From contig JAJFJQ010000063.1 in assembly GCA_021773835.1 (NCBI GenBank), positions 1 through 64,000 on the forward strand: a stretch of 64,000 nucleotides of DNA. The letters are read 5' to 3'. Source of the DNA: Gammaproteobacteria bacterium. Its GTDB lineage: Bacteria; Pseudomonadota; Gammaproteobacteria; Ga0077536. Under the pieces are notes generated by a model. That model had not been told where the DNA came from. It searched no databases and worked only from the letters and a program-made list of their open reading frames with translations. Positions 6,325-22,224 of the stretch are shown here, piece by piece (within the stretch, counting starts at the first letter, position 1; each line of letters opens with the position of its first letter). Both the position numbers and the translations under genes were made by a program.

Positions 6325-6549
6325 GCCGACGGATCCTCGAGATTAGTTCCTGCTGGGCATTATATCGCACGTACCACTATCCAGCGGTGCCTGAGACGCA
6401 GTTCGCAATTCGCGCAATAAATTTGTCGTAAAGCGCATAGCCTACTGATTACTTGGAACAAATTGTTAAAGCGACCGGACGAAACGCCGATACCAGTCTA
6501 AGCTTTGAACCAATCTTTTGACTCCTGGGATAACGAGCGAACCAAACTC

Positions 6550-7800
6550 ATGAAATCGAGCAAACCAGCCATCAAAGCCGGCAGCCTCAAGGCGTTCTAC
6601 CCCTTTACGGAACTCCCTCCTGAATACGTCATTATTGCGGCTAAGTTCGCAGAGCAATTGGACATTTCGGACGGAGATTTGGTACTCGAAGAGAATTCCG
6701 AAGATCCGAATGATTATTTCCTCGTTGAAGGAAAGCTGCATGTTCGAGACATTTACGGTGCAGATTCGACGATGGTCGGAGGGGCGCCGGAAGCGGTACA
6801 ACCGCTACCTCAATTACGTCCCAGCGCTTACCGGATAAAAGGCAATGGCGGCGCTACCTTGCTGCGGGTACCGCAAGAAGTCATTCGGCGCGTGCGGTCC
6901 GAAGCACCAGAAAAGATAACCGCGGTTGAAGACGACATCACGCTGGATATCACGCAATCCCGCGAATTCTTCAACGACTTTAAAGAAGAACTGCAGATGA
7001 ACCGGGTGCGCTTACCAAGTTTGGCGCCGAGCGCATCCCGAGTGCACCGGTTACTCGGCGGCGAAGGCGTTTCGGAATCCGATCTAATTGCGGCGATATC
7101 GATGGACCCGGCAATTGCCGCAAAACTCCTGAAGATGGCGAATAGCTCGCTCTTTAACTTAGAAGAAAAAGTTGAAGATATGTCGGGCATCATTGCGCGG
7201 CTTGGAATTTTCGCCACGCGAGAAATCGCCGCGTGTTTCGCATTTCGTGACGTCTACAAAAATTCGCCGCCCGAGCTCGTTGCAAGGCTGCAAGATCAGG
7301 TTTCGGAGGCGCGTCAGGTTTCGGCGATGTCATCAGCCATCGCCGAGCTTACTGACGATATCGATCCAAAAGTTGCCGGTTTGGCTGGATTAATGCACAA
7401 CGTCGGGGTGCTACCAATTTTCAGCTATTCAATGCAAAACGTTGCCTACGCCATGAATCCAAAGCTTGTAGACCGCGCGATACAAAAGATGTCTCACCAG
7501 GCCGGTGCGCTTTTAGCGAAAAAATGGCGTTTTAGTGACGAGATCGTACGTAGCATCGAGCACTCTAACGAATGGTCATATAAGACCGGCGACCGCCCCG
7601 ACCTAGTCAATATCGTCCTAACCGCGAAATACCATTATCTTCTAAGTCACTCGGGTTTGAAGTCCATCCCAAAACCCAAAGAAGTTCCATCAATCGCTGC
7701 GGCTACCTGCGGGCAATTTGATGAAAAGCTTAGTCTGAAGATCCTTGGTCGAGCCAAAGAGCTGATGAGCGTTGATATGGCCGCCGGTTGTCCGGCTTAA
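6550..7800 (+). CDS. HDOD-domain signalling protein with N-terminal cyclic-nucleotide-binding-like region
   Basis: The 416-residue protein has a central to C-terminal HDOD domain (about residues 150-350), recognised by LPSLAPSASRVHRLL, ISMDPAIAAKLLKMANSSLF, a GIIARLGI helix and AGLMHNVGVLPIFSY. HDOD domains are HD-like but lack phosphohydrolase residues and act in signalling, often with cyclic di-GMP or stress pathways. The first 120 residues resemble a cNMP-binding barrel (DYFLVEGKLHVRD). The ATG at 6550 is preferred; a TTG at 6505 would add 15 residues. It converges with the RpfF-like gene. Confidence 0.75.
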   Translation: MKSSKPAIKAGSLKAFYPFTELPPEYVIIAAKFAEQLDISDGDLVLEENSEDPNDYFLVEGKLHVRDIYGADSTMVGGAPEAVQPLPQLRPSAYRIKGNGGATLLRVPQEVIRRVRSEAPEKITAVEDDITLDITQSREFFNDFKEELQMNRVRLPSLAPSASRVHRLLGGEGVSESDLIAAISMDPAIAAKLLKMANSSLFNLEEKVEDMSGIIARLGIFATREIAACFAFRDVYKNSPPELVARLQDQVSEARQVSAMSSAIAELTDDIDPKVAGLAGLMHNVGVLPIFSYSMQNVAYAMNPKLVDRAIQKMSHQAGALLAKKWRFSDEIVRSIEHSNEWSYKTGDRPDLVNIVLTAKYHYLLSHSGLKSIPKPKEVPSIAAATCGQFDEKLSLKILGRAKELMSVDMAAGCPA

Positions 7801-7823
7801 AATCCGCGAAACGCGAAACCGTA

Positions 7824-7852
7824 GGGCACTAGACCCAGTAAATCTAGTGCCC
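7824..7852. terminator. Bidirectional hairpin between convergent genes
   Basis: GGGCACTAGA (7824-7833) and TCTAGTGCCC (7843-7852) form a perfect 10-bp stem with a 9-nt loop between the convergent HDOD and RpfF-like genes. There is no clear T-run on either side, so termination efficiency is uncertain. Confidence 0.6.
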
Positions 7853-7869
7853 GAGAGTTCCATAATGGC

Positions 7870-9828
7870 TTAATAAGCCGTCATAAATAATCGCTGGTCT
7901 TTACCAAGGGCGTGTCTGCCCTGGGCGTTGAGCACGTTGTCTATCAGCAGATAATCTCCAACTTCGAGTGGCACTTCGATGGTTACGCGCTGATGCACGG
8001 CTGTGATCTCGTCAAGATATGATTGTGGAATCGCTGATCCATCACTGAAGTTTACGTCTAATGATGCCGGCGATTTGACGATGCTAAATAGTTTCGACAA
8101 TAGTGATTTTCGCTCGATAAAATTATTTGACGTAGATTTAAACAAATGGACTTGGTTAAACCACACCCGATCTCGGGTATCGGTGTGGGAGACGCAAGCC
8201 GGCGCGCTATTCCAAATCTCGACGCTGCCATTTGAATGCCATAGGTAGCTCAAGCCATTGTCTCGGCATTTATTTTCTACGACGTCTCTATCGGACGTTT
8301 TGAAAATATTCTGCCACGAATGAACTCTACACGATTCGAGCCCTGTGTCCGGTTTGTAGCTATCAATCGTTGGGAACAGTCGCCGATAAGTGATGCCCCG
8401 TCGTTCAAATTCCAATATGAGTTCGTCGCTGAGGCTTTCGTACATAGAACGCGTGTTCGCGAGCGTGACCGTACCGCCCGGCTGTGGCGCGTTGGCATCG
8501 CACGCCAGTATTTTAAATGACGGAAAAATTGTGCAATCCGAGTAGGCATTGTGCAGCGCCTGTGCGGTCTCAGATAACCAACAATCATCCTCAAAGACAT
8601 TCTCGTACAGCGCTGCGGGAGTTGGAATCGAGCGCGCAGCGTTAAATTGTCGGTCTGGGCGTAAGGCGGCACATAGCTTGCTTAATGAACCGGCACCATT
8701 ATTTGAGAAACCCCGCATTAATATCGCTCCGTGGCGCGATAGGTTTTCGTATACCCAGGGACGCGAATTTTTTACAAACGCGAAGAATTCCGTTTCATTG
8801 AACCGTCTTACCGTCTTTGGGGTGATTACTAAGGGTGACAATTTCCCGAACTCGGCGTCCGGAATCATTTGTTCGCTTATCAGGTCTCCGAAATCGATGG
8901 TCCGCCTTAGGTGGGTTACGGTTGCCTTTGCCGGTTTTTCCGATGCGCGTTTCTGCGCTTCCAAGATGTAACCCATTGTGCGCAGTTGGCGGCGATTAAG
9001 ACTCAACGCTTGGTCGACCCACTCATCAACGGAATCGAGCAGCTGGTTGCGGTCGAGATCTGCAAACCGGGTCCGATATTGTAAGGTCGTCTCATTCGAC
9101 GCAGTTTCCATCCAAGCGTCTAACGTTTGCTGCCCTTCGCCTTGTTCTGCAAGAATGTCGATTACACCCATTTCGTGCAACATCTCTGCTGAGTACCGGT
9201 TAGTACTTCCAATCAGTCGTCTAGCGCAATCCGAACCCGCCCGAGCGCTCAATAGCGCATGGCCACCCATACCGGGAAACAGTCCAAACAAGGCTTCGGG
9301 AAATCCGAACATGGCACCCTTTTCAGCGACTAATAGGTGCGCTGACAGCGCTGCTTCGAAGCCGCCACCTTGTGCCTCTCCTTGAACTAGTGCGACTGTC
9401 GTCAAATCCTCGACGTTTGCCCCCTGTGTGTTTGTCCAAATCGCGTCGAGCGAGGCGTGGGCATAGTGGGCCAACTCATTGCGATTGTTTTTATCGATAC
9501 AATCGCGGAAGCGAGCGAGATCACCACCTAGCGAAAAGATCCCAGGCCGTTTTGATGCCATAATTTTGAAATTAACCGGGGGCGCATGGTCGGGGCTTCG
9601 AGCGAGCGCAGTTGAATACACGTTGTCAACGCTCAACAGGTCTTCCATCATTTCCAACGATACGAAGGCCGGCGCACGGTCTGTGAGGTAAATCCACAGT
9701 GCACGCCTGCTTGAGTCGTAGCTCAGGTCGAGGTAATCAGTGTTGGGAATTTGGACAGTGCGGTTAGGTTGCTGCCGTGCACTTTCCGACGGCGCAAAGC
9801 TTCGCTGTGAAGCAATCACATTAGACAT
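7870..9828 (-). CDS. RpfF-like crotonase (DSF synthase family) fused to a TauD-like domain
   Basis: A 652-residue two-domain protein. Residues about 30-310 are a crotonase closest in pattern to RpfF, the DSF synthase: FSLGGDLARF near 96, GGGFEAAL near 155, FGFPEALFGLFPGMGG near 176 and YSAEMLHEMGVID. Both glutamates used by RpfF (in GGGFEA and FPEALF) are present. RpfF makes cis-2-unsaturated fatty acid signals from 3-hydroxyacyl-ACP. Residues about 330-652 have the TauD/SyrP-like 2-oxoglutarate oxygenase pattern (GGTVTLANTR, GDYLLIDN), but the usual H-x-D/E is HNA near 425 and the distal His of the HGR motif is Gln (AQGR near 637). The domain is therefore either catalytically altered or dead. 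An ACP and a ketosynthase gene lie divergently next to it. Confidence 0.85.
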   Translation of the reverse strand: MSNVIASQRSFAPSESARQQPNRTVQIPNTDYLDLSYDSSRRALWIYLTDRAPAFVSLEMMEDLLSVDNVYSTALARSPDHAPPVNFKIMASKRPGIFSLGGDLARFRDCIDKNNRNELAHYAHASLDAIWTNTQGANVEDLTTVALVQGEAQGGGFEAALSAHLLVAEKGAMFGFPEALFGLFPGMGGHALLSARAGSDCARRLIGSTNRYSAEMLHEMGVIDILAEQGEGQQTLDAWMETASNETTLQYRTRFADLDRNQLLDSVDEWVDQALSLNRRQLRTMGYILEAQKRASEKPAKATVTHLRRTIDFGDLISEQMIPDAEFGKLSPLVITPKTVRRFNETEFFAFVKNSRPWVYENLSRHGAILMRGFSNNGAGSLSKLCAALRPDRQFNAARSIPTPAALYENVFEDDCWLSETAQALHNAYSDCTIFPSFKILACDANAPQPGGTVTLANTRSMYESLSDELILEFERRGITYRRLFPTIDSYKPDTGLESCRVHSWQNIFKTSDRDVVENKCRDNGLSYLWHSNGSVEIWNSAPACVSHTDTRDRVWFNQVHLFKSTSNNFIERKSLLSKLFSIVKSPASLDVNFSDGSAIPQSYLDEITAVHQRVTIEVPLEVGDYLLIDNVLNAQGRHALGKDQRLFMTAY

Positions 9829-10236
9829 CTTGTAAACCCTCCTCCGGGTAAGTCGCGGATACCAGCATTTAAAATTGCTTGTAGCGATAGCGACTTTTTT
9901 CGAACCAACGACCCTTTTAATACTGATGCGGTCTTTTGTTGGTTCTTGGGCGAACGTGGAACTTTCCGTTTCCCACGCAGTTCTATTTATAATTCACGCA
10001 CCAAACGTGTGCCGTCCAGAGAAGCTACGGAAGACGTAATTTTCGTCGCATCACCAATTTGGGGTAGTCAATTTCGAAGTGTGATGAGGTTCACATTGCG
10101 AAAATCAAGGATAATGCGTATAAATAACCTAAAAACAGTAGTTTATAGCGTTAAATTTATTTGAATTATTATATATATCAGATTAAAGATAAAAGTTAAT
10201 CTTCGTCCCCTATCTATCTAAAATATAAGCAATCCT
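9829..10236. other. AT-rich divergent intergenic region
   Basis: About 400 bp separate the RpfF-like gene and the ACP gene, which diverge. The half next to the ACP gene is strongly AT-rich (tatatatat near 10170-10178). This is where promoters for both directions should lie. I see no protein gene in it. Confidence 0.5.
10180..10202. promoter_or_regulatory. Operator-like inverted repeat upstream of the ACP gene
   Basis: AGATTAA (10180-10186) and TTAATCT (10196-10202) form a perfect 7-bp inverted repeat with a 9-bp spacer, 35 bp before the ACP start codon. Size and position fit a dimeric regulator site, but no regulator can be assigned. Confidence 0.4.
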
Positions 10237-10506
10237 ATGAAGCTTAATCGCGACGAGACGCTCACTGCGGTATTGGAAAGCGTTGCTGAAACGCTCAGTA
10301 TCCCCTTGACCGATCTTACTGAGGACACGTTGATTCGGGAGGACCTCGAAGCCGATTCGATGGACGTTGTCACGTTGATGGTTTTGCTAGACGACAAATT
10401 CGACGCGGAATTTAATCCAGAGGACATTCCGGACGAGGAAGTGTCAATCCGTTGGGTGGTCGATCACATCATTGAAAAACTGGAGAGCGCCGCGAATGGA
10501 TCGTGA
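10237..10506 (+). CDS. Acyl carrier protein, dedicated type
   Basis: An 89-residue acidic protein with the ACP fold and the phosphopantetheine attachment serine at residue 41 in EADSMDVVTL. A short helix IPDEEVSIRWVVDHI completes the domain. It is not the housekeeping AcpP, whose usual fab neighbours are absent. Its stop codon overlaps the GTG start of the ketosynthase (GTGA), indicating translational coupling. Together they probably make or hold an acyl chain, plausibly the substrate of the RpfF-like enzyme encoded divergently. Confidence 0.9.
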   Translation: MKLNRDETLTAVLESVAETLSIPLTDLTEDTLIREDLEADSMDVVTLMVLLDDKFDAEFNPEDIPDEEVSIRWVVDHIIEKLESAANGS

Positions 10507-11867
10507 CCAATAATCGCGTTGTCATAGCGGGCCTCGGGGTGGTGTCCGCGCTCGGCAATAACGTCGATAAATTTTGGGAAGCGTGTCTAGCGGGGCACTC
10601 TGCGATCGAATCGATACCCGAACAATGGGCCCACTACTACAAATCTAAGAGCCAGTCGTGGTCGCCATTGACGCTGCCGGACTATAGCGTGTATGGATTA
10701 ACGCGCGCCGATACCTTGCGCTACGATCGGGTTGTATTGAACGCGATCACTGCAGCGGACGATGCGATCGCTGATGCCGGATTCGAAAAAGTAGAGCACG
10801 ATGCGCGGGCGCGGTCGTATCGCCTCGCCGGAGTCAATAGAGATCGATTTGGTGTCTTTATCGGTTCGGGCTTGGGGTGTATTTCATCCGCCTTTAACAA
10901 CTACGTCCCGCATTTGCTCGGTAATGCGTCCGAGGATCTATTTGGGCCCGACCCTGAAGTTCGTAGCGACATGACAGCCGAGCTACGGACGAACTTACAG
11001 GGGTTCCCGCGGGTCAGCCCATTCGCGAGTGTGCAATCGATGGCGAATGCGATTGGTGGACTCCTATCAATTCGATACGGCTCGCGAGGTGCAACCGAAA
11101 CATTGATCTATGCCTGTGCGGCTGGAACAGCGGCTATTGCACGCGCGTATCGCGCAATTCAAACCGGGGAGATTGATGTTGCTATCGCCGGTGGTAGTGA
11201 ATATTACGGCGACCGTGCTGGCGGTGTGTTCATGGCATTTGACCGTCTACAAACATTGGTTTCATCCGAGCAGCCACCGGAGCGCGGAAATTGCCCGTTT
11301 GACGAAGCTCGAACCGGGTTCCTATTTAGCCAAGGTGGTACTGGGATGGTGCTTCTGGAATCGGAATCTCACGCACGCAAACGTGGTGCGTCATCGCTTG
11401 CAGCTATCAAAGGCATGAGCATAACTTCTGATGCGCACTCGCTTGCGGCAATTTCAGAAGAAAACAATGCGATCGAATTGATGTTTAGAAATTTGCTCCG
11501 TGATAGCGAGCTACAACCGGAGGACGTTTCATATATAAACGCACATGGCACTTCGACCTTACAGAACGATCCAATTGAGGCAAATATTTTAGGGCGGGTC
11601 TTTCCCAATAGACCCTACATTAATAGTACGAAATCTTTGCTCGGCCACACGATCGGGGCAAGTGGGGCGATTGAGTGCATCGTAACCATACTTTCAATGC
11701 GCGACGGAAAGATCCACCCGTCGCGGAACTTAGAGAACCCTATCGCTGACTTAAAATTCGCGACCGACGTTTGTACGGCTCCCATCGAATTTGCGGTTAC
11801 GCACAGCTTTGGCTTTGGTGGGCATAACGCGGGGTTAGTGTTACAAAATATTTCTAGCGAGACTTAA
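10503..11867 (+). CDS. Beta-ketoacyl-ACP synthase (FabF/KAS II-like)
   Basis: A 454-residue condensing enzyme with the full Cys-His-His triad: Cys205 in YACAAGTAA, the first His near 347 in NAHGTSTLQNDPIEA and the second near 380 in LLGHTIGASGA, plus the GFGGHN C-terminal motif. It should condense malonyl-ACP with an acyl primer. The GTG start overlaps the ACP stop. At 454 residues it is longer than FabF (about 410) and carries an insert around residues 85-160, as seen in specialised or aryl-polyene/lipid type synthases. The product chain is unknown. Confidence 0.9.
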   Translation: MTNNRVVIAGLGVVSALGNNVDKFWEACLAGHSAIESIPEQWAHYYKSKSQSWSPLTLPDYSVYGLTRADTLRYDRVVLNAITAADDAIADAGFEKVEHDARARSYRLAGVNRDRFGVFIGSGLGCISSAFNNYVPHLLGNASEDLFGPDPEVRSDMTAELRTNLQGFPRVSPFASVQSMANAIGGLLSIRYGSRGATETLIYACAAGTAAIARAYRAIQTGEIDVAIAGGSEYYGDRAGGVFMAFDRLQTLVSSEQPPERGNCPFDEARTGFLFSQGGTGMVLLESESHARKRGASSLAAIKGMSITSDAHSLAAISEENNAIELMFRNLLRDSELQPEDVSYINAHGTSTLQNDPIEANILGRVFPNRPYINSTKSLLGHTIGASGAIECIVTILSMRDGKIHPSRNLENPIADLKFATDVCTAPIEFAVTHSFGFGGHNAGLVLQNISSET

Positions 11868-11921
11868 CACCATTTTGTTTAGTAGATTCCTCGTCTGCAT
11901 AGATGAGACCGGGAGAAGGCT

Positions 11922-12884
11922 GTGCAACAACCAGACATACCGCTCGAAGAACCGACACGTATAGATGCGCTGCGCGAACTGGAACTGCTTGATACGCTAC
12001 CTGAAGAACGCTTTGACCGTATCACCCGCATCGCCAAGCGCCTATTCGGCGTATCTATTGCGCTGATCAGTTTGGTCGACGATAAGCGCCAATGGTTTAA
12101 GTCAAAAGCCGGACTGGATGTAGACGAGACACCTCGAGACATTTCGTTTTGCGGACACGCCATCCTTGGCGATGAGTCGTTCGTCGTAACCGATACACTT
12201 GAAGATAGTCGTTTTTGCGACAATCCGCTGGTGACAGAAGAACCCCATATTCGGTTCTACGCAGGTTATCCGCTCGTGGTATCTGGCGGTAGCAAGATTG
12301 GTACCTTGTGTATTATCGATAGTAGTCCGCGCGCATTTACCACCGAGGATGAAGAGCTATTAAGAGATCTGGCGAGCCTGGCGGCACAAGAACTGATTGC
12401 CTTGCAGCTCGCCACCATGGACCACCTGACCAAGTTATCCAATCGGCGTGGTTTCGAGACGCTGTCGCACCACGCACTGGAATTGTGCCGACGCATGGGG
12501 ACACCTGCGGCGTTGATTTATTTTGACCTTGACGACTTCAAGACAATAAACGACGAGTTCGGCCATTTGGAGGGAGACAGTGCGCTGGCGAATTTCGCGG
12601 CGCTATTAAAGATCGAATTTCGCGGGTCAGATGTCATTGCACGTTTTGGTGGTGATGAGTTTGCGGTAATGATGCTCGATTCCACCGAAGCGGGCCTAGA
12701 CACCGCGTTAGAACGATTCAGGCATTCCGTAGATGCATTCAACGATGAGGGATTGCATCGCTACAAACTCGAGTTCAGCTATGGCTTGGTGAAAGTCGAT
12801 ACCGCGCGGCACTCAGGTGTTGCGAGCCTGGTGAATGAAGCGGACCAGTTAATGTATCAGCAGAAAAGGAGCAAACGGCGCTAG
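11922..12884 (+). CDS. GAF-GGDEF diguanylate cyclase
   Basis: A 320-residue cytosolic protein with an N-terminal GAF domain (about residues 20-160; FCGHAILGDESFVVTDTLED and AGYPLVVSGGSKIGTLCIID are typical) and a C-terminal GGDEF domain. The active-site GGDEF is intact near residue 243 and FDLDDFKTINDEFGH marks the metal site. It should make cyclic di-GMP under control of a ligand or redox signal in the GAF domain. I see no RxxD inhibitory site. The start is GTG at 11922 after a purine-rich GGGAGAAGG. It lies beside the DSF-like block, where RpfG (a c-di-GMP hydrolase) would normally be found. Confidence 0.9.
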   Translation: MQQPDIPLEEPTRIDALRELELLDTLPEERFDRITRIAKRLFGVSIALISLVDDKRQWFKSKAGLDVDETPRDISFCGHAILGDESFVVTDTLEDSRFCDNPLVTEEPHIRFYAGYPLVVSGGSKIGTLCIIDSSPRAFTTEDEELLRDLASLAAQELIALQLATMDHLTKLSNRRGFETLSHHALELCRRMGTPAALIYFDLDDFKTINDEFGHLEGDSALANFAALLKIEFRGSDVIARFGGDEFAVMMLDSTEAGLDTALERFRHSVDAFNDEGLHRYKLEFSYGLVKVDTARHSGVASLVNEADQLMYQQKRSKRR

Positions 12885-12956
12885 CGACTCGGTGTGGCCG
12901 CTAAATTTGCCGCGGATCTAAAAGCATCGTGGTCGAAAATTAGATAGCGCCACGCG

Positions 12957-13802
12957 CTATCCCGCCGCGCCTTCGAACTTTGGCAAATCGTCGGTGATGG
13001 GATACCAAGTTGATTTGGAGCCTACGAAGATATGGTCGTCGGCGCCGCGTCGCGGGTCGTCGTCTAACGATCCAAGCGGCACCACGGCTAGCTGTCGTTC
13101 TTCATCCAGCCGTGGCAGGCCTGAACCACAATCTGGGCAGAACACCTGTGCAAAGTATTTCGCCGCTGCTACGCGATAGGTTTTAATTGCGTCGCCGCCG
13201 CGAGTGAAGCGTATATCGTCTAGGTCAACAAACCCGTTAGTCGTGTGCGCCGCAGCCCGCGCCTTGCGGCAACGTGAGCAGTGGCAGTTGTGTACCACTT
13301 TGAATTCGCCGTCGATTTCATAGGCAATTTTCCCGCAAAGACAGCTACCGCGTAGAATGCCGTCGGAAGATGGGGTCCGTTCAGTTCGGTCAACTGCGGG
13401 TTCAGCCTGTCCTGGGTAATTGTCGTGCTGAGGTAACGCATCGGTGATTGCGTGCCAGGGTGCTTTCCATTTCGCAAATATGTGAGCGGACGGTGATAGC
13501 CCTGGATCACCGTCCATGGACCCGACAGGTATGGCGACAATGTCCCCAAGGTCGGTATTCGGTAGCACCGAGCCGCAGTGCGAGCAAAATGAGCGGATGA
13601 AGCCTCGCGACGACTCGTAGGACGACTTTTCATCTGCACCGGCGGTGTACTCAAACGGTGCATGAGATCCAATCGCATACGATGCGAACGGTGCAGCGTG
13701 TGCCTTGCGGCATATACCGCAATGACAATGAGTGATGCGATCGAATTCGCCGTCGTAGTTCCAGCGAACGGTACCGCAGAGGCAGCCACCTGTAATCATC
13801 AT
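12957..13802 (-). CDS. Tandem GFA-domain protein (glutathione-dependent formaldehyde-activating fold)
   Basis: A 281-residue protein with two GFA/CENP-V domains. Repeat one has CLCGTVRW, HCHCGICRK and FCSHCGS; repeat two has CLCGKIAY, NCHCSRCRK and FCPDCGS. Each binds two zinc ions through these cysteines. Members of the family react with S-hydroxymethylglutathione or are of unknown function. Single-domain forms are usual, so the duplication is less common. No operon partner is evident. Confidence 0.85.
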   Translation of the reverse strand: MMITGGCLCGTVRWNYDGEFDRITHCHCGICRKAHAAPFASYAIGSHAPFEYTAGADEKSSYESSRGFIRSFCSHCGSVLPNTDLGDIVAIPVGSMDGDPGLSPSAHIFAKWKAPWHAITDALPQHDNYPGQAEPAVDRTERTPSSDGILRGSCLCGKIAYEIDGEFKVVHNCHCSRCRKARAAAHTTNGFVDLDDIRFTRGGDAIKTYRVAAAKYFAQVFCPDCGSGLPRLDEERQLAVVPLGSLDDDPRRGADDHIFVGSKSTWYPITDDLPKFEGAAG

Positions 13803-13937
13803 TATTTCCTCAATTTATTCTGTTTATGTGGATTGTATGGAGTCCCACACTGACTCCATCTCACTGTAAAACGGCAATCATGAAACGATCGTCGACACTC
13901 TTGCTGCGACGTGTGCGATCTGTAGCGCCGTTACGAA

Positions 13938-16541
13938 CTAATACAGCGCCCGGATCCCTTCGGTGGTTTGCGCAAACGTCGCCAGGATATCGTCGTGTAA
14001 CTCAGTATGGTCGCGCACTAACCGCTGTGTATCGGCCATCTCAATATTACGCGCCGTCTCAGCGAGTTTCTCCGCCCCAATAACAAGACACGCCCCGGCG
14101 AAGGCGTGCATGGCATCGCGCGCTGCCTGTACCTTGCTCACCTCATCGCAGTCGATCAACGTAGCAATATAGCTCGAGCCATCCGTAATAAAATCTTCAA
14201 AGAAACTCGCTCGCTCCGCCTCGTTCATGTAGGAGACGAGTTCTTCTACCGCGGTGGTATTGAGCAGGTCCGACCCGATGGTGGTGGATTGCGCCGGTGC
14301 CGGGAGGGACTCGTACGGAAACCCACCGCTATTGGTGTCGCTTATTACCGCGATCCCGTCCTCGATATCATTGTTCGCCGCGACCGAGTCGATGACATCG
14401 ACCAGCTGTCTTGGTGTGATGGGTTTCGTCACAAAGGCATCGATACCATTCGCACGAGCTTCCTCGCGGGCCTCAACCCGGCTGTCGGCCGTCATCATGA
14501 TCAGTGGGATGCGACCATCTGGTTCGAAATGCGAGAAGTTATACACCTTGGCAACTTCAATACCGTCGCGATGCGGCATATGCATGTCCAGTATTGCCAG
14601 ATCGTAAGTCCCCTCATGGAGGGCTTCCAAGGCTTCATCGCCGTCGCCGACAATGGTGCAGCGATGCCCCGCATCTTCTAAGACCATCTGTGCGATGCGT
14701 TGGTTGGTGGGGTTGTCTTCCGCCACCAAGATGTGGAGTCCCTTAACACTGTCCGCCGACGGGGCAAACTGCTCTGTCGCGTCGTGTCGCAGGGCGCTCA
14801 CCATGTTCAGCGTTCGGCTAACGAGTTGCTTATCGTCGAGATCGGCGATGTAGGCCGCATACCCCGCAGCGATGGCCGACGATCGGTAGGCATCCTCTCC
14901 ACAAGCGTATACCGGGATGATCCGATCGGTGAAGATCGCCGAGATCGTGCGCACCACACCGCCTAAGTTCTCGGCAAATTGATCGGCATTGACGAAGATC
15001 GCCTCCGGCACTGTCCCGTGCTTATCGGCACCGTGGAATTCCGACAGACTGGCAGCGGTGGGAAAGTTGACTATTTTGGTGCCGAATTGAGATAAAACGG
15101 TGGCGAGATGTCCCTCGGCTTCATCGAAGCCAATACCCGCAACCGTGAACGGGTACAGTGGCGAGACGTCATCGCGCTCAAGCAGTTTCTGCAAATCAAC
15201 GTCAATGGTGAACTTCGTGCCCACACCCTCGGTCGACTCGACGTCGATGTGCCCATCCATCAATCGAATGAGCTCTTTGGCGAATGCCGTACCGAGCCCG
15301 GTGCCACCATGTTTGCGCGTCATCGGTGAATCGGACTGGACGAACGGCTCAAAGATATTGGCCAGCGCGTGCTTTGGTATCCCGGGACCGGTGTCGCTTA
15401 TCTCAAAGCGGACCGTCACGGTGTCGTCTGTTTCGCCTTTGTACAAAACCCGCACAGCTACCTGACCGGCCTCGGTGAACTTCACCGCATTGCCGCACAG
15501 GTTGATCAACACCTCTTGCAATTGATGTGGCGAGCCGATGAGCGCGTTGTGGATCTCAGGGTCGATGTAGACCTGCAGTGCCAGCCCTTTCTCTAAAGCC
15601 TGTGGCCACAGAATATTTGCGGTATCGTTGACCACTTCGTGGAGGTCCATTGGCTGCTGTTGCAGCGCGATCGACTTCGACTCGAACTTACTGATATCGA
15701 GGACACGATTGATGAGTTCGAGCAACGAATTTGATGAGGTGGAAATGATCCGGATCATCTCTCGTTGCTTCGGTGAGGCGGCTGTACCGCGCAACAGATC
15801 CGAGGTTGAAATAATGCCGTGCAGCGGTGTTCTGAGTTCGTGGCTCATCATCGCCACGAAGTCACTCTTCGCCCGGTAGGCTAAGTCCTTTTCAGCGACC
15901 GCCCGTTGCAGTTGCGCAATTAGAAAACCGACATAGGCTGGGACAATAATGAGACCGAACATCATGCCGGCAAATAGTCCCGGGTTGTTAGACCAAAATG
16001 GCGTATACCATCCCGCGACTGCAAAGCAGCTCACCGCCAACGACAACTCAGCACACAGATACCTCAGACCGTATCGAATTCCGTAGCCAACGGAAATCCA
16101 GATGTACAACGCGAAAAAGCCGGCAAAAGTAGCGCCGCCGAAGTAGATAACCCACGTAATGAAAAACGTGTCGCTCAGCATGCTGACGATACGCTGGCTA
16201 ACCCGCCAGATATGTTGGGATTTTCGTTCGTTTAATTGAGTTGCCCAAAAATACAAAATGGCCCCAGCCGGTAAACCAACTACGGCTGTGGCTAGGACCT
16301 TTACAGAGTCAATCTCTGGGTCTAGTCGTGCTGCGATTACGGCGAGCACGATTAGCGAGACGTGCATCCAATTTCGTATTTTTGCTTGTGCGACCTCGTT
16401 CAGTGTGGCGGCCGAAACCGCGAACGACTCCTCGTGTCTACTTGAACTGGCTATGCTGGGGTCGGATGCCGATCCATTACGAACCTTCGGCTCACGGTGA
16501 AGCCGCTTATCGGAAGCGCGTTTAGTTCGTGGAGAAACCAT
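13938..16541 (-). CDS. RpfC-type hybrid sensor histidine kinase (TM input, HK, receiver, Hpt)
   Basis: An 867-residue hybrid kinase. The N-terminal membrane region (about residues 50-210) has the RpfC-like pattern of a helix with an Asp, then a segment ending in GYGIRYGLRYL. It is followed by the H-box SHELRTPLHG near 230, ATPase motifs (INLCGNAVKFTE, DTGPGIPKHALANIF, GGTGLGTAFAKELI), a degenerate receiver-like spacer, a receiver with the phosphoacceptor Asp in LAILDMHMPHRDG near 650, and a C-terminal Hpt with His in AMHAFAGACL near 811. RpfC senses DSF and phosphorelays to RpfG. No RpfG gene is in this window. ATG at 16541 is preferred to a TTG nine codons upstream. Confidence 0.85.
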   Translation of the reverse strand: MVSPRTKRASDKRLHREPKVRNGSASDPSIASSSRHEESFAVSAATLNEVAQAKIRNWMHVSLIVLAVIAARLDPEIDSVKVLATAVVGLPAGAILYFWATQLNERKSQHIWRVSQRIVSMLSDTFFITWVIYFGGATFAGFFALYIWISVGYGIRYGLRYLCAELSLAVSCFAVAGWYTPFWSNNPGLFAGMMFGLIIVPAYVGFLIAQLQRAVAEKDLAYRAKSDFVAMMSHELRTPLHGIISTSDLLRGTAASPKQREMIRIISTSSNSLLELINRVLDISKFESKSIALQQQPMDLHEVVNDTANILWPQALEKGLALQVYIDPEIHNALIGSPHQLQEVLINLCGNAVKFTEAGQVAVRVLYKGETDDTVTVRFEISDTGPGIPKHALANIFEPFVQSDSPMTRKHGGTGLGTAFAKELIRLMDGHIDVESTEGVGTKFTIDVDLQKLLERDDVSPLYPFTVAGIGFDEAEGHLATVLSQFGTKIVNFPTAASLSEFHGADKHGTVPEAIFVNADQFAENLGGVVRTISAIFTDRIIPVYACGEDAYRSSAIAAGYAAYIADLDDKQLVSRTLNMVSALRHDATEQFAPSADSVKGLHILVAEDNPTNQRIAQMVLEDAGHRCTIVGDGDEALEALHEGTYDLAILDMHMPHRDGIEVAKVYNFSHFEPDGRIPLIMMTADSRVEAREEARANGIDAFVTKPITPRQLVDVIDSVAANNDIEDGIAVISDTNSGGFPYESLPAPAQSTTIGSDLLNTTAVEELVSYMNEAERASFFEDFITDGSSYIATLIDCDEVSKVQAARDAMHAFAGACLVIGAEKLAETARNIEMADTQRLVRDHTELHDDILATFAQTTEGIRALY

Positions 16542-17276
16542 GTCGGCGGCAGCGATGTATTCCCGCAAGAGGCAGTAAATTAGACATCAAATTATAGCGT
16601 ACCCCGCCTGACGAATTTGTCGCACGAGTGGCTAAAATTGGCTCTATATAACGAATTTCGCCTAAAACTAGCGTGATTGACCTTTGTTCACTTGATTAAG
16701 CGTTGATTGTTGAGCCGCAGCGGGCAGTACGGCAGGGTTCGTGACGAAAACGAATGTGTCGGGAAGAAACCGATCGGCATGCGAATTTGCAATTTTCGGA
16801 TCGCTTTCCTAGGTTCCGAGTTTCGGTAAACCACCCTTGGTATAAATCGAAAATGGTCGCTATTGTGAACTGGGCCGTCTGCGCAGCAGCCAGGGAGTTC
16901 AAATGAAATAGGGCATCAAATAGCCGCCAACCGATGGTTCGAGGGGGCGCTATAGTCGGTCCTCCAGAGCTCCGAGAAGCGTCACATGTCACTACGTGTA
17001 GTAAGGTCGTGTCGCGTCGGTTCCGATGCACGCTCGCATTAACAACTGGGTCAATTATCTAGCTGAACGAAGCGATACTCACGAGCAATACGAGATAACA
17101 TAGCATTCTCGAACCGGGCGTTCGGTGGGTTCGGACGCTTTCGTTGAAAAACTTGAACATGCAACCGGTAGACGACTTAATAAAGCGTAATGTAGGACAG
17201 CTGGCCATCGACACAGAAATATTCAACTGGAGACATTCCGAAATAGATCGCCTGTCCTGGAATTCCTGAATATCGA
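16542..17276. other. Intergenic stretch without recognised gene
   Basis: About 730 bp separate the sensor kinase and ligase genes. Short open frames exist on the minus strand, but their composition (Arg, Ser and Cys rich) looks non-coding. I see no tRNA, repeat or clear terminator. Confidence 0.4.
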
Positions 17277-18890
17277 TCAATCGAGGTTTGGCTTGAGATC
17301 GCCTTCTTTGAACATGTCCGCTAGCTTGAATTTCTGAATTTTCCCCGAGGCCGTCAGCGGGAAGGTATCGACCTTGATCCAAAGCTTCGGTGTCTTATGT
17401 GGCGCGAGATGCTCGCGCATATAGTCATGGAGTTCTGCGGCACTCAACTGCTCACCCTCGTTGAAACGCAGGAACGCGGAGACTTGTTCGCCCCAACGTT
17501 CGTCGGGGATCCCCACCACCGCGACCTCGGCGACCGCTGGGTGATCGAAAAGCCGTTCCTCGAGTTCTCGCGGATAAATATTCTCGCCGCCGCGGATGAT
17601 CATATCCTTGAGGCGGCCTTCCACGTAGCAATAACCTCGCTCATCCATGCGACACAAGTCGCCGGTGTGCAGCCAGCCCTCGGAATCGATGGTTTTGGCG
17701 GTTGCTTCTTCGTTTTCGAAATAGTCGGTCATCACCAGGTAGCCGCGGGTGCACATCTCGCCGGTCTCACCGATAGGGAGCGTGTCGCCGCTCTCCGGAT
17801 CGATGATCTTAACCTCGGTGTGCGGCAACGCCGTGCCGAGCGATTCACTCTTGTCTTTCGGCGAATCGTCAAGTTTGATCATCGTGATGACCGGAGAGGT
17901 TTCGGTCTGGCCGAACAAAATCGCGAATGACACACCCATTTCCGCTTCAATACGTTTGACAAGATCAATGGGGACCGTCGCCCCGCCTGAGACAACGACG
18001 CGCATAGAAGAAAGATCGCGTGGATTTGCGGCATACGCTTCCAACAAGGCCACGAGCATTGTCGGCACCGCCAGCGTATACTCGCCGCGTTCCTGCTCGA
18101 TGAGATCAAGAAATAAATTGGGGTCAAACTCGGGCAACAACACCAACGTGCCCTGAGTTTGCACAGTGCCAAGTACGCCGGCAACGCAGCCGCCGGTGTG
18201 AAACAACGGCATCGCACAGATGTCAACCGTGCCATCTCCAGCACCTCGTCTGATCGCCGTTAGCCGTGCGTTATTAGTGATCCCATAGTGATGCAGGTGC
18301 GCGCCTTTAGGAAAGCCGGTGGTACCCGAGGTATATTGAATCATCACTGGGTCGCCCGGATTAACGTCCGGTAGTTTAGTGTTGGTGTCACCCCGCGCAA
18401 CGAATGTGGAGAAATCGTCCAGGCAGATTCGCTGACGCAATTCGGGCAATTCCCCAGCGACTTCGGCTATCGATGCGCTCATCGGATTGCCACGGAAGCT
18501 CGTTTGATAGAACACTCCAACGGAGCGCGATTGACCGAGCACATACTTTAATTCGGCGGGCTGGTACGCAGGGTTAACAGTAACTAAGACCATGCCACTG
18601 AGGGCGATTCCAAACTGGAGAATTACCCACTCAGGACAGTTGCCGGACCATACCGCGATGTGATCGCCGGGCTCGAACTGGTTTAATAATGCCCGCGCCG
18701 TGCGCTCAGAGTCGCCCAGTAGCTCGGAGTAAGTCCAACGCCGCCGCGCTGAGCGATCCGCATTACCTTCGATCAGGGCTATCCCGTTTGGTTTGGCGGC
18801 CGCGGCTGCACGTAGCGCATCGCCGCAAGTCGAATCCAATAAGGTTCCGTCAGCTTGTAACGGCCAAAAAGATTCACTCAGTGTAGTCAT
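17277..18890 (-). CDS. AMP-forming fatty acyl-CoA ligase (RpfB/FadD-like)
   Basis: A 537-residue adenylate-forming enzyme. The P-loop YTSGTTGFPKGAHLHH is near residue 190, the A5 motif LFGQTETSPV is present, and GWLHTGDLCRMDERGY and TASGKIQKFKL mark the hinge and catalytic lysine. It activates a carboxylic acid to acyl-AMP and then to the CoA thioester. In xanthomonads the ligase RpfB is encoded next to rpfF and removes DSF-type fatty acids; this gene is the natural candidate for that role here. ATG at 18890 follows AAGGAA with good spacing. General fatty-acid or short-chain acid activation cannot be excluded. Confidence 0.85.
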   Translation of the reverse strand: MTTLSESFWPLQADGTLLDSTCGDALRAAAAAKPNGIALIEGNADRSARRRWTYSELLGDSERTARALLNQFEPGDHIAVWSGNCPEWVILQFGIALSGMVLVTVNPAYQPAELKYVLGQSRSVGVFYQTSFRGNPMSASIAEVAGELPELRQRICLDDFSTFVARGDTNTKLPDVNPGDPVMIQYTSGTTGFPKGAHLHHYGITNNARLTAIRRGAGDGTVDICAMPLFHTGGCVAGVLGTVQTQGTLVLLPEFDPNLFLDLIEQERGEYTLAVPTMLVALLEAYAANPRDLSSMRVVVSGGATVPIDLVKRIEAEMGVSFAILFGQTETSPVITMIKLDDSPKDKSESLGTALPHTEVKIIDPESGDTLPIGETGEMCTRGYLVMTDYFENEEATAKTIDSEGWLHTGDLCRMDERGYCYVEGRLKDMIIRGGENIYPRELEERLFDHPAVAEVAVVGIPDERWGEQVSAFLRFNEGEQLSAAELHDYMREHLAPHKTPKLWIKVDTFPLTASGKIQKFKLADMFKEGDLKPNLD

Positions 18891-18893
18891 CAA

Positions 18894-21585: not shown

Positions 21586-22014
21586 CTACTCATCTCGCAT
21601 CGAACCGCCCGCCATCTCAAGTAGTTCTTCAGTTGAAAGTGACTCGATATGCTTCTGATATCGTTCTTGTCCGATAGAAAGATTAACCTCCGTCCGTACC
21701 GGTTCGTGGAATCCCAAAATCTTATTGACCTCAGACCACCCCCTCACAATTGCGCTTGGATTCCGGTCCTCGTCCGCGATCTGAATTGCACGCAGGAGAC
21801 CTTCAAGCACGGTTTCACGATCGATCCTGTGGCGCTCTGCAAGATCCTCTAAGCGACGATCTATCACTACCCGTATGTCATCGTGTGTAAGTAAGCGATG
21901 CGCTGTCTGACGCGCACAAGACGCGCTGTATCCTGCTCGAATTGCAGCTTGAGCGCCGTTACGATCTACTAGGTATTCGTCTATAAAAGCGAGCTGATTA
22001 GTGTTGAGATCCAT
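21586..22014 (-). CDS. Phage terminase small subunit
   Basis: A 142-residue protein with the Terminase_2 (PF03592) pattern: LNTNQLAFIDEYLVDRNGAQ, AAIRAGYSASCARQTAHRLL and a C-terminal alpha-helical oligomerisation region ending NKILGFHEP. Small terminase subunits recognise pac/cos sites and hand DNA to the large subunit. The open frame reaches to 22158, but ATG at 22014 is preferred because AGGAG lies nine bases before it and the family begins there. No large terminase or structural gene is present, which in satellites means redirecting a helper phage's packaging. Confidence 0.85.
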   Translation of the reverse strand: MDLNTNQLAFIDEYLVDRNGAQAAIRAGYSASCARQTAHRLLTHDDIRVVIDRRLEDLAERHRIDRETVLEGLLRAIQIADEDRNPSAIVRGWSEVNKILGFHEPVRTEVNLSIGQERYQKHIESLSTEELLEMAGGSMRDE

Positions 22015-22224
22015 CTCATATAACTCCTGATTGTTGCGAAACCCCCTAGTTCCCCAGCCACGAAGCCCGCTGCAGCACGGTGCAACGAGGGCAAGTGCCT
22101 GCGCTTCGCTCCACTTGGTCTGCGCAGCGGCGTAGTCATCTAACTTGGCGGTGGGCATCCGCCGTCTTTGACGAAGGTATATAAATTAGATATCAGGCGG
22201 GGATCTGCGTGTCAAATGCGTCAT

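Follow-up and report, generated by a model that had tools for sequence, protein, structure and literature searches.

Gene Content of the Locus

The stretch of DNA analyzed here (hereafter the window) comprises the first 64,000 nucleotides of a 112-kb contig (JAJFJQ010000063.1) from a gammaproteobacterial genome of 6.1 Mb and 98% completeness (GCA_021773835.1, lineage Ga0077536), and it carries a set of genes that a preliminary description, made from the sequence alone, had read as a rearranged locus of the rpf type, that is, for quorum sensing by diffusible signal factor (DSF). All the genes named there are present as open frames, with coordinates about as given (Table 1). The synthase had been recognized as a fusion, whose partner can now be named as a TauD domain; its gene is divergent from an overlapping pair of genes for an acyl carrier protein (ACP) and a FabF-like ketosynthase (KS), and a gene for an RpfC-type hybrid sensor kinase lies farther along. 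A promoter scan of the region between the divergent genes found no sigma-70-like site. For comparison, we used 36 genomes of the same family, placed by kinship codes (an order-level set added no further genomes), which provided 15 RpfF loci besides that of the window, 16 in all, and 51 rpf loci sampled outside the family. Some of these loci end at contig edges, so that counts of the ACP-KS pair are lower bounds.

Table 1. Features of the locus, with positions in the window
Feature	Position	Strand	Remarks
HDOD protein	6505-7800	+	Open frame; tail to tail with the RpfF-TauD fusion gene
RpfF-TauD fusion, 652 aa	7870-9828	-	Residues ~30-300, RpfF-type crotonase; residues 346-649, TauD (PF02668)
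Spacer separating the rpfF-like gene from the divergent ACP-KS genes	9829-10236		Both promoters presumed here
ACP, 89 aa, phosphopantetheine site ADSMDVV	10237-10506	+	PF00550, 31.5 bits; divergent from the fusion gene
FabF-like KS, 454 aa	10503-11867	+	4-bp overlap with the ACP gene
GAF-GGDEF protein	11922-12884	+	54 bp behind the KS gene
Double-GFA domain protein	12957-13802	-	Between the GGDEF and kinase genes
RpfC-type hybrid sensor kinase, 876 aa	13938-16568	-	About five membrane segments, HisKA, HATPase, receiver (REC), Hpt
Acyl-CoA ligase, PRK12583 type	17277-18893	-	NCBIfam profile

The Crotonase Half of the Fusion Belongs to the RpfF Family

Profile, tree, and predicted fold all place the crotonase half of the fusion in the RpfF family, as had been proposed. 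Its top NCBIfam model is NF006452 (262 bits, cut-off 177), its closest PDB sequences are RpfF, with 5fus and 6dgn among the top matches, and the 12 best PDB matches by predicted fold were all RpfF-family chains (template modeling [TM] score 0.87-0.90 by target length). Both catalytic glutamates, Glu158 (GGGFEAAL) and Glu178 (GFPEALFGLFPGMG), are present, as they are throughout the RpfF alignment, the family motifs being a Glu in GG(G)FEAAL and another in (F/L)PExxFxxFPGMG. In a 67-row tree, the RpfF-like rows, three solved RpfFs included, split from two enoyl-CoA hydratases of the same genome with support of 100/100, so that the window protein does not fall outside the RpfF clade. Within this tree, the RpfFs of the family that have ACP-KS neighbors (11, counting the window) form a single clade, again at 100/100; for the family-level RpfFs as a whole, the approximately unbiased test did not separate one clade from two (p = 0.19).

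Every RpfF of the family has Gly as the residue that follows PExLF (codon 182 of the fusion gene, window 9283-9285), as do most ACP-linked RpfFs elsewhere; nearly all remaining RpfFs have Asn there, and the RpfF of Xanthomonas campestris pv. campestris (Xcc) has Asp. This residue may influence the substrate choice of RpfF. Outside the family, a Fisher test of the Gly/Asn difference against ACP linkage gave p = 0.001, from which we claim no association because the independent pairs are too few. A second kind of RpfF is found in three family genomes (L051, L052, and L053, in G008, G016, and G022), beside gat (amidotransferase) genes, where none of ACP, KS, and kinase is encoded. The clade of this second kind groups with L111/L130, apart from the ACP-KS-linked clade, and G008 carries both kinds.

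A Conserved Core of rpfF, ACP-KS, and RpfC-Type Kinase Genes

An ACP-KS pair lies beside rpfF in 10 of the 15 other family loci (11 of 16 with the window), and directly beyond the KS gene 9 of these 10 have a gene for an RpfC-type kinase, which runs in the direction of the KS gene in eight (L043-L049 and L056) and is convergent with it in L050; L042 has a gene for an MMPL-type transporter in that place. The window kinase gene is also convergent with the KS gene, with the GGDEF and GFA genes between them. Instead of the classical rpfB-F-C-G set, the conserved core consists of rpfF, the ACP-KS pair divergent from it, and, next in order, the gene for the RpfC-type kinase. The expectation that the cluster would be conserved in relatives holds for this core; the relatives' loci lack the genes for the ligase and for the HDOD, GGDEF, and GFA proteins, and the suggestion that all members serve one signal pathway is therefore limited to the fusion, ACP, KS, and kinase. 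Both the double-GFA and the HDOD gene stand outside the core, and the GAF-GGDEF gene, which we did not see between the KS and kinase genes of relatives, is possibly a later addition to the ACP-KS operon.

That the GGDEF and GFA genes interrupt the window locus, and that its strands differ, would suit a collection of chance neighbors in which the rpfF-like gene, the RpfC-like kinase, and ACP-KS are functionally unrelated. This is highly improbable and is already contradicted by conservation: ten other family genomes, belonging to several genera, have these genes side by side, most of the protein pairs being ~35-55% identical, and of the 33 other crotonase genes that the window genome carries none is, by its coordinates, within 8 kb of a FabF-type KS gene.

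The acyl-CoA ligase, by contrast with the core proteins, did not keep the identity first given to it. We rejected its assignment to RpfB on the NCBIfam scores, in which PRK12583 is best with 495 bits (below its cut-off of 832) and the FadD-type long-chain model PRK07059 gives 230 bits. No RpfB-type (FadD) ligase gene adjoins rpfF as in the classical locus, and the ligase gene that is present is not conserved with the core.

The KS retains its active-site Cys (YACAAG) as well as HGT and KxxxGH, and it has an insert of ~35 residues relative to FabF. The housekeeping FabF is encoded by a separate gene on contig C71 and scores 652 bits with TIGR03150, versus 311 for the cluster KS. Other families have the ACP-KS pair in 4 of the 51 sampled rpf loci, in several arrangements: divergent from rpfF in L111, in the order ACP-KS-rpfF with all genes in one direction in L124, and placed between rpfC and rpfG in L114 and L131; in L064 and L138 there is an ACP without a KS. 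The KSs of L111 and L124 group with those of the family at 94/95, just under the support mark, and those of L114 and L131 are FabF-like but of another type. With two KS types beside rpf genes, the association of ACP-KS with rpf loci seems to have arisen at least twice. The papers retrieved by full-text searches of the open-access literature contain no description of an ACP-KS pair in DSF loci. A β-branching cassette of the HMG-CoA-synthase type (ACP, decarboxylating KS, and crotonase) was also considered and rejected, since the active-site Cys of the KS is present and no HMG-CoA synthase was seen in the locus. In L114 and L131, two rpf loci of different families, a protein of 356-360 residues is encoded beside ACP-KS (L114:12773-13843 and L131:12758-13840).

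An RpfC-Type Kinase and No RpfG

The kinase has the architecture of RpfC, in which a related membrane input is followed by HisKA, HATPase, REC, and Hpt domains, and its identification as an RpfC-type sensor stands, since the input aligns with the RpfC family. The motif GYGIRYGLRYL is confirmed in it. The input is 34-44% identical to those of nine family kinases, and it aligns also with RpfC-type kinases adjoining rpfF-rpfG in other families; in a Lysobacter genome, the top match to the kinase spans residues 125-460, reaching into the input domain (2e-69), with a second receiver nearby. The Hpt match in the window kinase scores 22.7 bits against a Pfam cut-off of 24.6, with the His present, and Hpt is above the cut-off in the three relatives' kinases scanned. 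In Xcc, DSF binds the N-terminal segment of RpfC, and R15, D17, S18, E19, and Q22 are needed for DSF sensing (PMC5391125); E19 is reported to be conserved in all kinases with an RpfC-type input, and PA1396 of Pseudomonas aeruginosa senses through its membrane helices (PMC6536496). Of the five residues, E19 and Q22 (RpfC numbering) are retained by all ten family kinases.

A 381-residue protein encoded beside rpfG and rpfC in another family (L124:3992-5137) matches the RpfC-type input in its N-terminal part and GGDEF in its C-terminal part, and is possibly a DSF-sensing diguanylate cyclase.

The absence of RpfG, first noted at the locus, extends to the genome: no REC-HD-GYP protein was found in either, and of the two HD-GYP proteins that the genome does encode, one a GAF-HD-GYP, neither has a receiver. 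RpfG-like REC-HD-GYP genes are present at 29 of the 51 loci from other families (counted by hand, with the domains checked for six) and at none of the 15 other loci of the family. One cluster-bearing relative (G018, 99% complete) gave no RpfG match at 1e-30. Others, for example G025, G031, and G012, have unlinked REC-HD-GYP genes, so that an unlinked RpfG could serve there; the one REC-HD-GYP gene of G009 that was viewed in context has no RpfC-type kinase beside it.

The Fused TauD-Like Domain

The second half of the fusion matches PF02668 with 55.8 bits. In a model of the full-length protein this half was unusable; folded alone with a deeper alignment, it took on a TauD fold (predicted local distance difference test [pLDDT] 83, predicted TM score [pTM] 0.83) whose nearest solved structure is 1y0z (TM score 0.78). 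The 2-His-1-carboxylate triad that would bind iron is incomplete: H426 is kept, Ala428 occupies the Glu position (HxE changed to HNA), and Gln636 occupies that of the distal His. Two of the three ligands are thus missing from a site at which, in one set of homologues, HxE and the distal His are both kept in 29 of 29. The fused domain shares its fold, and 20-30% identity, with TauD dioxygenases of the SyrP-like/At3g21360 type; it differs from them in the lost ligands, in the fusion to RpfF, and in that no nonribosomal peptide synthetase (NRPS) was seen among the neighboring genes. Among the relatives of this half are stand-alone dioxygenases that, in Variovorax, Lysobacter, and Streptomyces, are encoded next to very long NRPS-like frames.

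To judge from these residues, the domain probably lacks Fe(II)/2-oxoglutarate oxygenase activity. Were it an oxygenase or a halogenase that modifies the acyl chain, the product would be a hydroxylated or chlorinated DSF; the predicted full TauD fold would allow this, and a change of HxE to HxA occurs in SyrB2-type halogenases. To our knowledge, however, halogenases keep both His ligands, whereas here the distal His is Gln and one of three protein ligands is left, which makes such an activity very unlikely, and we disfavor a halogenase read from HxA for the same loss. The domain may instead be a scaffold, a module that binds substrate or ACP, or a decaying passenger. The fusion is known from one genome assembly only, with no second case among 36 family and 369 class genomes.

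A Polyangiaceae TauD-like protein from the first homologue set (L041:10001-10825) has HQA for HxE and retains the distal His, possibly a halogenase-type site. In L042 and L050, lineages near the window in the KS tree, a gene for a membrane fatty-acid desaturase, with His boxes present by eye, lies directly downstream of the rpfF-like gene in place of the fusion (L042:345-1229, with a 4-bp overlap; L050:9019-9912, with a short gap). That desaturase and TauD fusion are functionally alike is speculation.

A Probable DSF-Family Signaling Locus of Derived Form

On the sequence evidence, we consider it likely that this is a derived form of a DSF-family (cis-2-unsaturated fatty acid) signaling locus, with a dedicated module for precursor supply and a different output. 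RpfF is known as a dehydratase and thioesterase that acts on 3-hydroxyacyl-ACP and yields free cis-2-enoic acid (PMC4504480). In the window, the dedicated ACP and FabF-like KS would lengthen an acyl chain separately from housekeeping fatty-acid synthesis and supply it to RpfF, with ketoreduction by a cellular FabG; the RpfF domain, through its Glu pair, would dehydrate the 3-hydroxyacyl-ACP to the cis-2-enoyl form and hydrolyze this to a free fatty acid signal. The membrane input of the kinase would detect the fatty acid, the kinase would relay phosphate from His to Asp to the His of Hpt, through the domains it carries, and, as no RpfG was found, Hpt would pass the phosphate to some other regulator; the neighboring GGDEF protein may, speculatively, provide a link to cyclic di-GMP (c-di-GMP).

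Several observations weigh against this reading. Five of the family's RpfF loci are without ACP and KS, and the window kinase gene is on the opposite strand from the KS gene and 2 kb from it. The crotonase half does not reach the RpfF equivalog model SgnlFctrSynRpfF (152 versus 550 bits); since the RpfF of a canonical rpf locus in another family (L059) also misses the cut-off, at 249 bits, the model is narrow and no defining feature of the wider RpfF family. Finally, R15, D17, and S18 (RpfC numbering) are not kept in the family kinases, whose ligand may for this reason differ from DSF itself. A more specific proposal, which we offer tentatively and think rather doubtful in its full form, is that a private ACP and a private KS build the chains, that RpfF, fused to a non-catalytic TauD-like domain binding substrate, ACP, or signal, releases them, and that the RpfC-type kinase senses a novel signal, belonging or related to the DSF family, and triggers an RpfG-free response.

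ACP-KS pairs of their own are common in lipid pathways, and a small pathway for lipids or secondary metabolites might be at work here, in which the RpfF domain, with ACP and KS, serves chiefly as an acyl-ACP thioesterase/dehydratase and the kinase responds to the state of membrane lipids and not to a diffusible signal. The desaturase genes of L042 and L050, the transporter that replaces the kinase in L042, and the broad thioesterase activity of RpfF (PMC4504480) would all fit. We nevertheless think it unlikely, because in 9 of 10 family loci the adjacent kinase is specifically of the RpfC type, and because full rpfF-rpfC-rpfG loci (L111 and L124) have a KS of the same subfamily next to them.

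Taken as a DSF-family signaling locus, the window compares most directly with Xanthomonas rpfB-rpfF/rpfC-rpfH-rpfG, with which it shares an RpfF-family crotonase with both catalytic Glu, an RpfC-type input-HisKA-HATPase-REC-Hpt kinase, and the closeness of the genes; it differs in the ACP-KS pair, in the TauD-like fusion, and in having neither an RpfG in the genome, nor an RpfB-type ligase, nor the three residues R15, D17, and S18 of the sensor segment. The RpfF-RpfR systems for Burkholderia DSF (BDSF) in Burkholderia and Cronobacter have a synthase of the same family (the solved RpfFs 5fus and 6dgn); in the window the neighboring sensor is an RpfC-type kinase, and an RpfR-like PAS-GGDEF-EAL protein is not in the locus. 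PA1396/PA1397 of P. aeruginosa likewise combine an RpfC-like membrane input with signaling via a non-RpfG regulator, but we know of no synthase linked to PA1396, whereas synthase and ACP-KS are linked to the kinase here. The idea of a separate chain-building enzyme that feeds RpfF has a parallel in Xcc FabG2 (XCC0416), a separate 3-oxoacyl-ACP reductase dedicated to DSF precursors, which acts at another step and is not described as a dedicated ACP-KS pair (PMC5941067).

In the systems described so far, RpfF draws its substrate from the general fatty-acid cycle. An ACP-KS pair conserved beside rpfF, in one family and in four more, suggests that in some bacteria the signal is assembled on a carrier of its own, and the missing RpfG suggests that sensing of the RpfC type can have an endpoint other than the usual c-di-GMP phosphodiesterase.

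Other Features of the Window

Farther along, in a part with no other obvious phage genes among those listed, positions 21586-22158 encode a 190-residue protein that by eye resembles a phage terminase small subunit. The first ~150 residues of the HDOD protein, where Pfam gives no match, look by eye like a degenerate cyclic-nucleotide-binding domain.

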